From IMG/VR virus record IMGVR_UViG_3300045931_000077, positions 1-24,578 of that record: 24,578 bases of DNA. One strand, given 5' to 3'. This stretch comes from a virus. Each line of letters opens with the position of its first letter. Positions within the stretch are counted from its first letter, which is position 1. Below, one piece after another: positions 2,517-6,901 of this stretch. The position numbers and the translations under genes are program-made. The notes beneath the pieces were generated by a model, which was given only the letters and a program-made list of their open reading frames with translations, ran no database searches and was not told the origin of the DNA.

Positions 2517-2750
2517 TTACTCACCGGTCGTGTTGCTGCCGTCATGGATCCTGAGCGCGCCGGGCGCCCGCTGGTGCCCGTTGCGCAGCTGCGCCGAGAC
2601 GAACGCCAGGACGCGCAGGCGGTCCTCGACGTCCTCGAGGTCGAGCAGCAGCCCCGTCACCAGCGCCGACGTGCGCAGGACCGGGTCCTCGAGCGCCCGG
2701 CGCAGCGCGTCCCCTTCGTTGCGTGAACTGACTTCCACGGTCATCTTCAT
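2517..2750 (-). CDS. Hypothetical small helical protein
   Basis: This 77-aa acidic, Leu-rich protein is probably mostly helical. It has an EDPVLRTSALVTGLLLDLEDVEDRLRVLAFVSAQL stretch, given here only as a pattern of alternating hydrophobics at about residues 21-55. ATG 2750 overlaps the exonuclease stop by four bases (ATGA), so it is translationally coupled to it. No known family recognised. Its place between the exonuclease and the DUF1376-like gene suggests a role in recombination or replication, which is inference only. Confidence 0.65.
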   Translation of the reverse strand: MKMTVEVSSRNEGDALRRALEDPVLRTSALVTGLLLDLEDVEDRLRVLAFVSAQLRNGHQRAPGALRIHDGSNTTGE

Positions 2751-3403
2751 TCGGCACCGACTTTCTCGAGTTCGCGATCGAGCAGCTGTTGCACCTCGGC
2801 GAGCTCGCGATCGACTTCGGACAGAAACAGGCGCGCGGCGAGTTCATACGCGAGCAGGTCGACGTGCTCCCGCAATACGCGCACGCGCACGAAGCGGAGC
2901 GGCACGGGGAAGCGATCGTCGTAGCTGACGAAGTCGCACCAGGCCGCCCCGGTGATCCACAGGTTGTGGACGATCTGCGGGCGATACTCCGGCGGGATCG
3001 CGCCGGCGCGGACGTAGCCCAGGTGGGTCGCCGCCTTCGGGCACTTGATCTCGAGGATGCCCGTGTAGTCGCGGATCTCGCCGTCGGGCGAGCAGCCCGC
3101 CTCGAGGGTGTCGTGCGCCACGAACCCGACCTCGCGCACCAGCAGGCCGGTCGTCGCCTCGTAGACGGCCCGCGCCGTGGCTTCCATGTCAATGCCTCTC
3201 TGCATGTCTTTCGAGACGTAGCCGTTCTCCTGGGGCAGCTGCGTCAGCCGCTCGCACACCAGGCGGAGGCGGAGGTCGCGCCGCTTGGCGGCTTCGCCCG
3301 TCTTGATCGTCGTCAGCATGTCGCCCGCGCTCGAGCCGGTCAGGCGGCCCAGGCGCGCCGTCGCCCAGGCCGCCGTGCGCTGGTCCGGAGTCACGAGGAT
3401 CAT
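2747..3403 (-). CDS. YqaJ/lambda-exonuclease-type recombination nuclease
   Basis: This 218-aa protein is a PD-(D/E)XK nuclease of the YqaJ viral recombinase family. Seen in the sequence: RLTGSSAGDML near residue 20; Glu74 in a ME-x-x-AR helix followed by YEATTG; Asp108 in CSPDG; the E-x-K catalytic pair Glu118/Lys120 in LEIKCPK; and a YRPQIVHNLWITG helix before CDFVSYD. The family degrades one strand of double-stranded ends 5' to 3' and hands the single strand to the annealing protein. The Bet gene lies directly upstream with an ATGA overlap, so the pair should be made together. Length is typical for the family. Confidence 0.92.
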   Translation of the reverse strand: MILVTPDQRTAAWATARLGRLTGSSAGDMLTTIKTGEAAKRRDLRLRLVCERLTQLPQENGYVSKDMQRGIDMEATARAVYEATTGLLVREVGFVAHDTLEAGCSPDGEIRDYTGILEIKCPKAATHLGYVRAGAIPPEYRPQIVHNLWITGAAWCDFVSYDDRFPVPLRFVRVRVLREHVDLLAYELAARLFLSEVDRELAEVQQLLDRELEKVGAE

Positions 3404-4263
3404 TCGGTCTCGCCCTCGACGACGTCGCCGTCGGTGGTCCGCTGCGCCTCGCGCTTGAGCGCCTCCCAGCCGAGGCGGTAGGCCTGGGATTGCGCGACGT
3501 AGGCGCGCAGCGCCGGCGCGGAGGCGGCATACGCCTGTTCGAGCTTCGCCAGGTCGCGCTCTTCGGCGGTCGCACGCAGGTCGTCCCACCACGCCTCGAA
3601 CCCCGCGGGCGCCGGCGCCGGCGGCGCCTCGTCCTCCGCCTGGGCGTCGACGGCGCGCTGCCCGTCGAGTTCTTCGGCGGTCTGCATCCCGCCGAATTCG
3701 TCGGGGAAGGCTTCGCGCAGCCCCGCCGCCTCGCAGCACTTCGTCAGCATCTGCACCGGCGCGCGGCGCCAGCGGGCGTTGGCCGTGAGCTCCGACGTCT
3801 TCCGGTCCTTCACCGTCGCGCACACTTCGCGGAAGTAGGTGCGGACGGGAAACTCGACGCGCTGCCCCGCGGTCTCGTTCCAGCGGTAGAACGTGAGCTC
3901 GCACCAGGCCGGCGCCTCGACGCCGAAGACGGGGCCGATGGGCCCGTAGTCGGGCCGGCTGTGCCCGAGGTAGACGCCCGTGCGTTGTGAGGTCGTGCGG
4001 AGCTCGTAAATGCCCGGCAGCACGACGTCGCGCGTCACGTAAGCGCCGGTCACGGGGTCGCGCACCTCGATCGGCACGATGTGGCACGGCCGCTTGAGCG
4101 GGTCGAGATTGCGCGCGCGGCAGTAGTCGAGCACCAGGAGCACGCTCTTCGGGTTCGCGCCGGGATAGAGCGAGTGGCAGAGCGTGCGCCACTGGGCTTC
4201 GCTGACGCCTCGTCGCGCGACGGGCTCGGGGAGTTTGCTGCTCTCGAGGGCGGTCGTGGTCAT
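3400..4263 (-). CDS. bet: Bet/RecT-type single-strand annealing protein
   Basis: This 287-aa protein matches the phage Bet (Red-beta) family over its first 200 residues. The conserved landmarks are NPKSVLLVLDYCRARNLDP, then KRPCHIVPI, GIYELR, a GPVFGVEAPAWCEL strand, YF.EVC...D and the helix RWRRAPVQMLTKCCEAAGL ending in AFPDEFGG. The family coats and anneals complementary single strands during recombination. The C-terminal third is Ala/Pro-rich then helical, as in other Bet proteins, and may bind a host partner. ATG 4263 overlaps the previous stop (ATGA) and follows GAGGTGG. Its nuclease partner is the next gene, again with a 4-bp overlap. Confidence 0.93.
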   Translation of the reverse strand: MTTTALESSKLPEPVARRGVSEAQWRTLCHSLYPGANPKSVLLVLDYCRARNLDPLKRPCHIVPIEVRDPVTGAYVTRDVVLPGIYELRTTSQRTGVYLGHSRPDYGPIGPVFGVEAPAWCELTFYRWNETAGQRVEFPVRTYFREVCATVKDRKTSELTANARWRRAPVQMLTKCCEAAGLREAFPDEFGGMQTAEELDGQRAVDAQAEDEAPPAPAPAGFEAWWDDLRATAEERDLAKLEQAYAASAPALRAYVAQSQAYRLGWEALKREAQRTTDGDVVEGETE

Positions 4264-4846: not shown

Positions 4847-5012
4847 TTTGCCGTGCCCGACTCAGCCTGACCGCGCCTCGCCGTGCTATGCCCCGCCTGC
4901 TTTGCCTCGCTTCGCCCGGCCATGCCATGCCCGGTCACGCCTGACCAAGCCGGGCCGCGCCTGCTTTGCCGCGCCGCGCTCGGCCGTACCATGCCAAGCC
5001 CGGCCTTGCCTC
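4847..5012. repeat. Degenerate pentanucleotide repeat array A (GCCNN)n
   Basis: About 166 bp of noncoding DNA in which GCC (occasionally ACC or GCT) recurs every five bases on the plus strand. Examples are GCCGT, GCCTC, GCCAT, GCCCG and GCCAA. The phase is reset twice by the element GCCTGCTTTGC, at 4895-4905 and 4959-4969. Frames through it give only Arg/Gly/Ala-rich shadow translations. It fills the gap between two genes of the early operon, so on the transcript it is a GGC-rich leader ahead of the 4817 start. Confidence 0.85.
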
Positions 5013-5019
5013 CGACCTC

Positions 5020-5598
5020 TCAATGCACCGTCGTTTCGAGTGCGAGTTTGCAGGCGGCGAGACTCTCCAGCGCCACCGCCAACGAGACGGCGCGCGCCCG
5101 AATCGCCTCGTCGGGGGAGGTTTCGATCCGCCGCTTCGCATGCTGGATCCGCACTTCCAGCGCATCGCGCTTTTCCATCAGCGCATGAATCACGGCGGCC
5201 ATTTCTTCGGGATGCTGAATGACATCATCTAGCGTGCGATAGCGCCCCTCGCCTTTCGCCTCCGGGACGTTGAAGAACACGGGCACACTCTGCGCAACCG
5301 CGTCGGCGTCCTTGCCGGATCCCATGACGATCACTTCGATCGAATTGAGCACTGTGCGTGCTTGCCAGAGCCGGTATTGATGGCTGGCTTTGACATCGTC
5401 CCACTCGAGCGTGGGATGAAACGGATGCTCCGCGTCCTGCGCGATCTCGATGTAGCGCGACGGCTTCAGTTCCCCTTCGGCCTCGTACACTTGCAGTAAG
5501 GCATCGCCGACGGCCTGAATATTCGCGGCCTTCGGAAATCGTGCGCCCTTGCGCGTGCGAAACTGCGCCGGCCGCTGTTTGGTCTTTGCTCGACTCAT
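5020..5598 (-). CDS. Hypothetical phage protein between the two repeat arrays
   Basis: This 192-aa protein has no family I recognise. A basic N-terminus (MSRAKTKQRPAQFRTRKG) precedes a probable helical domain. Features are an EWDDVKASHQYRLWQARTVL helix near residue 70, a strand-rich middle around VPVFFNVPEAKGEGRY, and a long C-terminal helix (from about residue 130) in which two-residue hydrophobic spacing suggests a coiled coil. ATG 5598 follows AAAGGTTGG; longer reading frames upstream run into repeat array B and were rejected. The gene is flanked by arrays on both sides and is expected to be co-transcribed with Bet and exonuclease. Confidence 0.75.
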   Translation of the reverse strand: MSRAKTKQRPAQFRTRKGARFPKAANIQAVGDALLQVYEAEGELKPSRYIEIAQDAEHPFHPTLEWDDVKASHQYRLWQARTVLNSIEVIVMGSGKDADAVAQSVPVFFNVPEAKGEGRYRTLDDVIQHPEEMAAVIHALMEKRDALEVRIQHAKRRIETSPDEAIRARAVSLAVALESLAACKLALETTVH

Positions 5599-5625
5599 AC
5601 TCACCAACCTTTCAGAAACATTGAA

Positions 5626-6199
5626 TGCCTTGCCCTGCCACGCCCGGCCACGCCTAACCGGACTCGATCCCGCCCTGCTGGGCCTGGCCACGCCTGCTGT
5701 GCCGTGCCACACCACGCCGCGCTCCACCGCGCGCCGCCCCGCTGCACCGGGCCGCGCCTCGCCCTGCTATGCCTCGCCTGCCGCGCCGCTCCAGACCCCG
5801 CCCCGCCACTCCAGTCCTTGCCTCGCCTGCTTCGCCATGCCATGCCGCACTGCGCCAGACCGCACTGCGCCAGACCTCACCGCGCCTGACCATGCCGCGC
5901 CTGCTTTGCTGCGCCTCGCCTCGCCCGTCCTAACCTGACTCGACCACTCTTAACCGCGCCAGGCCGTGCCGGGCCTGCTTTGCTTGGCCCCGCCGCGCCA
6001 CGCTTAACCCAGTCGCGCCCAGCCACGCCAGGCTCCGCCCCGCCTGCCTTGCTCAACCCAGACAAGCCGGGCCGCACCTCACCTCACCTCACCTCACCGG
6101 GCCATGCCGCGCCTGCCTTGCTGTGCCCCACCGCGCCATGCCGGGCCGTACCAGGCCCCGCCTTACCGTGCCATGCCGAACACCGCCGGGCCGCGCCTG
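5626..6199. repeat. Degenerate pentanucleotide repeat array B (GCCNN)n with a ~70-bp super-repeat
   Basis: About 575 bp without a credible gene. GCC recurs with period five on the plus strand. Recent local expansions are visible: ACCTC four times in tandem at 6076-6095, and a perfect 15-bp tandem duplication at 5846-5875. The element GCCTGCYTTGC and close variants starts at 5825, 5899, 5973, 6042, 6111 and 6195, spaced 74, 74, 69, 69 and 84 bp, with looser copies at 5692 and 5776. The last copy overlaps the TAG stop of the upstream gene. It is not a CRISPR array: there are no identical repeats with unique spacers. Confidence 0.88.
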
Positions 6200-6901
6200 C
6201 TACGCCGTCTTGGCTTCGGGTTCGCGCGCACCGCTCACCACAACATGCGTCACGCGGAACATGCCCCAGCCCTGGCCCGCTGATTCGCGGCTGTCGGGAC
6301 GGCCCGCGCCGATGCCGACCTGGGCGCCGATGCGTGCAAAGAGATTCGTGATGTCGTCGCGCGTGAACATGTCCGCATCGAACCGGACGTTGACGACCAT
6401 CGACCATTTGCGGAACATCGCGCGCGCGCGCAGATCGGCGACGCCGGACGAATTGCGCACGGGTGCGATAAACGACTCCGGTGATCCCGTGATCCTCACG
6501 AGCGCCGTCTGTCCATCCTCCGAGACACCGTCGGCTTCGATAAAGATCGCGAGCTTCGCGAACGTCATCTTGAAGCCGACCAGACGACAGGCCGAGATGG
6601 CCGCAGCACGAAACGCGGCTGCGTTGAAGCCGTACCAGCCATCGGGACTCGTGTACAGACTGTCGCGATAGCCGGCTTCGAAGTTTTTCGGGTCACGCTT
6701 CCGCTTGCCGCGCGCCGTGCTGCCGGCGAGCTGCTGTTCTTGCATCGCATTGCGGGAGATGAGACCGAAGCGATTCGAGACCAGCGGACTGCCTTCGAGG
6801 TTCTCGATGTGGATCCCGATCCACTCCATCCGTGGCGGCGTGATCTGAATGCTCACGGCTTTCTTGGTTTCTTCCGCGTCCTTCTTTTCTTTCTGTGGCA
6901 T
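6200..6901 (-). CDS. Conserved phage protein with RAMP-like glycine-rich C-terminus
   Basis: This 233-aa protein belongs, from memory, to a family found near phage recombination genes and having no assigned function. Residues 38-46 (SPLVSNRFG), a basic linker with KRKRDPKNFE (67-76), the segment GWYGFNAAAFRAAAISACRLVG (split across 88-109) and an APVRN strand (146-150) precede a Gly-rich stretch at 196-213 containing VGIGAGRPDS then GQGWG. That last pattern resembles the glycine-rich loop of RAMP (Cas5/Cas7-like) proteins, which is only an inference from motif shape. ATG 6901 follows GAGGAACAACT. Repeat array B begins at its stop codon. It lies two array-separated genes upstream of Bet and exonuclease. 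Confidence 0.8.
   Translation of the reverse strand: MPQKEKKDAEETKKAVSIQITPPRMEWIGIHIENLEGSPLVSNRFGLISRNAMQEQQLAGSTARGKRKRDPKNFEAGYRDSLYTSPDGWYGFNAAAFRAAAISACRLVGFKMTFAKLAIFIEADGVSEDGQTALVRITGSPESFIAPVRNSSGVADLRARAMFRKWSMVVNVRFDADMFTRDDITNLFARIGAQVGIGAGRPDSRESAGQGWGMFRVTHVVVSGAREPEAKTA

Follow-up and report, generated by a model that had tools for sequence, protein, structure and literature searches.

The two blocks of period-five repeats in the early operon of this viral DNA (the window, i.e., the whole analyzed stretch of 24,578 nucleotides) are very probably the vrRNA arrays of a VIPR system that the phage carries and probably uses to silence rivals; expression, processing, binding, and silencing are what we infer here. 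VIPR, described in a preprint of 2026 (PMC13142463), is a virus-borne RNA-guided relative of CRISPR. Each vrRNA guide is a run of 9–16 YNNGG repeats in which GGY is fixed and NN hypervariable, and its binding partner is Vipr, a minimal RAMP homologue with an RRM core and a G-loop; in the reading of the target, a single base is passed over between NN pairs, in most cases a codon wobble position (PMC13142463). The majority of VIPR systems are found in phages and prophages, with vrRNAs in intergenic sequence flanking vipr and the vap genes; there are accessories vap1–6 and VIPR types I–VII, some of which have other array layouts. That work experimented with an E. coli phage and also gives an example from a Pseudomonas prophage (PMC13142463).

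The window holds a minimal-RAMP Vipr, units of 9–16 GGY/NN repeats, and intergenic arrays on the same strand (the arrays are so placed in 76 of 80 relatives as well), and its guide units U4, U1, U11, and U8 match targets with a 1-nt skip, all in the wobble frame. The locus (Table 1) is very probably a new member of VIPR, with an accessory unlike that of SUSP1 and a densely packed array.

Table 1. Features of the VIPR locus and of the related recombinase gene (positions in the window).
Feature	Coordinates	Strand	Description
vipr	6200..6901	-	233 aa, predicted RAMP-fold guide-RNA-binding protein; directly upstream of array A
Candidate vipr-accessory gene	5020..5598	-	192 aa, phrog_15946, between arrays A and B
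vrRNA array A	5625..6199	-	eight units, U1–U8; starts at vipr stop codon; period-5 Z 12.2
vrRNA array B	4848..5012	-	three units, U9–U11; period-5 Z 6.1
Guide unit U1	6114..6197	-	16 repeats; predicted target phage major capsid gene (L201)
Guide unit U2	6045..6113	-	13 repeats; SSB-like tail reading, tentative
Guide unit U3	5976..6044	-	13 repeats
Guide unit U4	5902..5975	-	14 repeats; predicted target terminase large subunit gene (L106:317-358)
Guide unit U5	5828..5901	-	14 repeats
Guide unit U6	5779..5827	-	9 repeats
Guide unit U7	5695..5778	-	16 repeats
Guide unit U8	5625..5694	-	~14 repeats; candidate target primase-polymerase gene (L200)
Guide unit U9	4962..5010	-	9 repeats
Guide unit U10	4898..4961	-	12 repeats
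Guide unit U11	4848..4897	-	10 repeats; predicted target recT-family recombinase genes of other phages
Window's own recT-family recombinase gene	3400..4263	-	PF03837, E 1.7e-15; homologue of U11 target

Period-Five Arrays and Their Code

At lag 5, block 5626–6199 has an identity of 0.56 (Z 12.2; 2000 dinucleotide shuffles give 0.34 ± 0.018). For 4847–5012 the value is 0.54, where shuffling gives 0.32 (Z 6.1). The period-five repeats reported for both blocks in an earlier note, made from the letters alone, are thus real and far above shuffled sequence. The signal ends at the borders of the adjoining genes, and a scan of the whole window shows no comparable period-5 signal anywhere else. As that note had also stated, the blocks are noncoding, non-random, and kept within a tight early operon; to call them kilobase-scale was generous, the combined length being approximately 740 bp.

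The minus strand, which is the coding strand of the operon, reads GGYNN in both blocks. The information profile of 129 pentamers shows 1.29, 1.78, and 0.98 bits at the GGY positions and 0.20 and 0.01 bits at NN. GGY is seen in 101 of these pentamers and RGY in 118, against a GGY frequency of 0.055 on the rest of the minus strand, outside the arrays; AGY accounts for 17 of the 28 departures from GGY. The GCCNN repeat of the earlier description is better given as GGYNN on the minus strand; it is non-uniform and broken into units of length 5n+4.

These units, approximately 11 in number with 9–16 pentamers each, are bounded by a junction RGCA|GGC, at which the five-base frame shifts by a single nucleotide. 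Inside the arrays, eight units run from one junction to the next; they measure 84, 69, 69, 74, 74, 49, 84, and 64 bases, all of them 5n+4. The same junction recurs with biased flanking bases at 253 junctions of related loci. The vipr stop codon (6200–6202) lies inside the first array junction (GGCGTAGCAGGC), so that the gene leads straight into the array.

Tandem Repeats Finder reports CACCT repeated 4.8 times at 6075–6098 and a 15-base unit repeated 3.1 times at 5845–5891. Such local tandem copies, as well as the position of the arrays at gene borders in a mosaic region, would suit slippage-driven DNA, either a recombination hotspot or a module linker, growing in fives. It is extremely improbable that the arrays are of this kind: all junction-to-junction units are 5n+4; the NN positions are nearly bias-free, whereas slippage would yield similar neighboring pentamers; and in 76 of 80 loci the arrays keep to the Vipr strand, while no locus has them reversed. 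Of the proposed repeat growth in multiples of five, the tandem copies are confirmed, although they are at least partly information content of the guides. For instance, four GGTGA copies yield GA-GA-GA-GA, that is, four acidic codons, tentatively similar to an SSB-type tail. The recombination hotspot, also proposed at the time, finds no support, given the strand-locking and the 5n+4 units.

Another candidate function was RNA structure. Repeats forming a structured RNA for stability, attenuation, or as a protein-binding scaffold, with no guide function, might draw on co-transcription of the array with the rest of the operon, provided that this forms a single unit, and on GG every five bases, which could in principle form two-layer quadruplexes. 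However, the folding energy is ordinary for a sequence of this dinucleotide content (z -1.22 against shuffles, of which 11 in 100 fold equally well), an Rfam scan, covering the hammerhead and other known RNAs, is without match, and the NN positions match phage genes exactly (see below), which is not predicted for a scaffold; we consider this explanation very unlikely. An assembly spacer is likewise unsupported. The view that the blocks are functional DNA is likely to hold. The statement that no function is established for them is superseded, as the arrays match the vrRNAs of VIPR systems; a DNA-binding platform comes close insofar as the RNA probably directs a protein onto DNA, and not otherwise.

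Vipr and the Candidate Accessory Protein

The protein encoded at 6200–6901 belongs to phrog_4652 (E 4.5e-15), which also holds the Vipr of Escherichia phage SUSP1. The latter, agp039, sits amid SUSP1's own GGYNN arrays and is identical in sequence to PDB 36pp_D, "SUSP1 Vipr protein". The same PDB entry is retrieved by a six-member profile including the window protein (E 3.2e-8) and, more weakly, by a 45-member one (E 1.1e-4); comparison of the two Vipr proteins by hhalign gives 96.9% (E 2e-10), and the glycine-rich GxGxxRP segment of the window protein aligns with GVGDWRP of SUSP1. The best structural matches of the AlphaFold2 model (pLDDT 78) are the RAMP subunits Csm3/Cas7 (Foldseek E 1.9e-5; Z 11.2 over 137 residues at 3.7 A). 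Judging by sequence profiles and the predicted fold, the product is Vipr, a minimal RAMP homologue; NCBIfam and PADLOC contain no model matching it.

The RAMP fold (Z ~11), as predicted for the window Vipr, is common to it and the class 1 CRISPR effectors (Csm3, Cas7). Unlike class 1 CRISPR, the locus has no CRISPR array, no other cas genes were found, and the guide code is noncontiguous. No cas gene is seen among the scanned window proteins, and the array is one of pentamers with no CRISPR repeats; on this evidence the locus does not qualify as CRISPR-Cas.

The protein encoded at 5020–5598 probably assists Vipr, by analogy with Vap1 in SUSP1. Its homologue lies beside Vipr in 72 of 80 related viral loci, and homologues are also present in cyanophage Cy-LDV1 and cluster-F mycobacteriophages, with none found in Gordonia phages. 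A single-sequence scan of viral contigs with this protein retrieved none, relatives surfacing only beside Vipr matches. The model of the protein is confident (pLDDT 92.7); a fold search with it gave no significant match, only the C-terminal helical hairpin being aligned. Comparison by hhalign shows no relation of this protein (phrog_15946) to SUSP1 agp038 (phrog_5926).

Comparison With SUSP1 and Other Relatives

The type II VIPR of SUSP1 (PMC13142463, PDB 36pp) and the window have in common a phrog_4652 Vipr, the GGY/NN code with 9–16 repeats, and arrays on both sides of the protein genes, on the same strand. The accessories differ (phrog_15946 in the window, phrog_5926 in SUSP1), and so do the numbers of guide units, approximately 11 and 4, respectively. 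SUSP1 vrRNAs carry an invariable structured 3' tail (PMC13142463), whereas the window units are joined directly by the one-base slip; no tail of the SUSP1 type was recognized in them, while the conserved junction with biased flanks was found. The junction may stand in place of the tail.

The earlier note was right that such repeats recur in other phages. By blastn, cluster-F mycobacteriophages carry an array of this type as well, again on the strand that encodes the early operon, and 76 of 80 Vipr loci contain one. Cy-LDV1, cluster-F mycobacteriophages (Cheoctovirus), and Gordonia phages share with the window a homologous Vipr, GGYNN arrays, and the GGCAGGC junction. The gene order vipr–array–accessory–array is common to Cy-LDV1 and the window; in contrast, the mycobacteriophages have a single array, with the accessory upstream of vipr.

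For synteny, we considered 80 uncultivated viral contigs with a related Vipr. GGYNN arrays are seen on the Vipr strand in 76 loci and, by the same criterion, on the opposite strand in none. Loci L019, L046, L058, and L093 have a related Vipr and the accessory, with no GGYNN array near Vipr on its strand, also under a looser test; their guides may lie elsewhere or follow another consensus. In the closest relatives, L014 and L015 (Vipr 62% identical), arrays are on both sides of vipr and comprise up to nine blocks over ~5 kb, the guide set being larger than that of the window.

In several genomes, GGYNN arrays are covered by annotated "hypothetical proteins", namely gp51 of BobaPhett and gp39 of ByChance (mycobacteriophages) and gp43 of Gordonia phage Pipp; the annotated arrays are at L005:6013-6177(-), L006:6018-6176(-), and L008:4581-4850(+). 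These three proteins are probably shadow ORFs over vrRNA arrays. The VIPR reading would explain a class of "low-complexity" gaps in phages, in places annotated as hypothetical proteins, and the guide code is seen in other lineages (mycobacteriophages, Gordonia phages, a cyanophage, and 80 uncultivated viruses).

Predicted Guide Targets

Guides were decoded as NN pairs with one free base between them. This skip rule was adopted from PMC13142463 and rests on that paper, since the large collections were scanned at a 1-nt skip only. A collection of 2.9 million viral contigs was searched for units U1, U2, U4, U5, U8, and U11, each represented by an exact seed with 18–20 specified bases.

U4 matches a terminase large subunit gene (L106:317-358) at 26/26 nt, or 13 consecutive dinucleotides, running eight bases past the seed without mismatch; the target protein contains TerL_nuclease (PF20441) and is 34% identical to the window TerL. 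U1 matches a major capsid gene (Phage_capsid, PF05065; 40% identity to the window capsid) at 22/22 nt, or 11 consecutive dinucleotides, extending four bases past the seed, with agreement lost after these 11 pairs. U11 matches a recT-family gene at 18/18 nt, at the same site in seven viral contigs, the protein being 52% identical to the window RecT. U8 agrees at 20/20 nt over its first 10 dinucleotides with a primase-polymerase gene (Prim-Pol, PF09250), with mismatches thereafter. The skipped bases are at sense-strand wobble positions in all four targets, and three of the four genes (capsid, terminase, and recT) have a homologue in the window itself. In contrast, only 2.5% of the DNA of VIPR-bearing relatives encodes homologues of window proteins, most of that being Vipr.

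Several seeds each gave an additional apparent chance match in the viral contigs, and a lone seed match hence proves little; the argument for targets relies on the extension past the seed (U4, U1), the codon phase, and the homology of targets to the phage's own genes. These also bear on an improbable alternative, a VIPR locus with decayed or unused vrRNAs and chance target matches. Replacement of GGY by AGY in 17 pentamers and the apparent chance matches of several seeds in the collection would be in line with it; however, the mismatch-free extension of U4 by eight bases and of U1 by four, the wobble frame of four out of four best matches in phage genes, and the homology of three out of four targets to genes of the window speak against it.

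The window's own recT agrees with U11 at 16/18 bases, better than all 200 shuffled guides; guide and self are thus two bases apart. This gene, 3400–4263(-), is overlapped in another frame by a long exonuclease ORF (2747–4192), and the start of the YqaJ exonuclease is probably near the end of recT.

U2 decodes to A-[IM]-P-[DE]4-A-P-F-stop, which tentatively reads as an SSB-type C-terminal tail; it agrees at 17/18 nt with the 3' end of a small gene in L171 ending with ...SDEDVPF-stop, an SSB-like acidic tail, and has no 20-nt exact match in the viral contig collection. U5 agrees at 17/18 nt with the accessory gene in a different VIPR locus (L041/L144), and the agreement does not extend further.

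Exact 20-nt matches of U5 in L094 and L095/L096 were judged to be due to chance, and a second match of U4, in L105, lies in the wrong frame and breaks down when extended. The genome collection contains no U4 target; the U11 pattern has four matches there, none of them in a recT gene. In 1.8 Mb of relatives, exact matches are observed at skip 1 only, mostly in loci fetched by that very pattern, and the numbers are small: just one exact match is independent, and near matches are no more frequent than in the reversed-order control. An excess at skip 3 in these relatives came from array-against-array matching and was gone after masking.

Proposed Mechanism

In the VIPR reading, the minus strand would be transcribed with the early operon into an RNA of approximately 11 units, each of 9–16 GGY-NN pentamers, parted by the one-base slip at RGCA|GGC. 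Vipr would coat each unit by binding its GGY triplets and leave the NN pairs exposed for pairing with double-stranded DNA, where one base is passed over between successive pairs. Once bound, the complex would keep the target from being transcribed, with the accessory protein probably assisting as Vap1 does in SUSP1. Several of the guides appear to be aimed at core genes of other phages, i.e., those for the terminase, the major capsid protein, and a RecT-family recombinase. As such guides address essential functions (packaging motor, capsid, recombinase), the phage probably silences rivals, and the likely role of the system is repression of rival phages within the same cell.

More tentatively, the slip at the junction could be a processing site or handle, with overlapping guides cut from one continuous RNA; approximately 11 guides might then jointly hit the terminase, capsid, and recombination genes of rivals, while a few self-mismatches spare the phage itself (16/18 for its own recT versus 18/18 for the target). 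This further step is possible, though we would not expect it to hold in full.

The locus supplies predicted natural VIPR targets in the terminase, capsid, and recombinase genes of related phages. The predicted attack on related phages is open to direct test, and the mycobacteriophage loci belong to well-studied laboratory phages.

Cross-matches are also seen between two of the uncultivated loci, L078/L180 (2142-2260, 2362-3657) and L081/L184 (5360-5420, 5708-7000), whose guides match each other's DNA-adenine-methylase-like gene, with nine pairs exact in one direction and 8/9 in the other. From these matches, the two VIPR phages apparently target each other.
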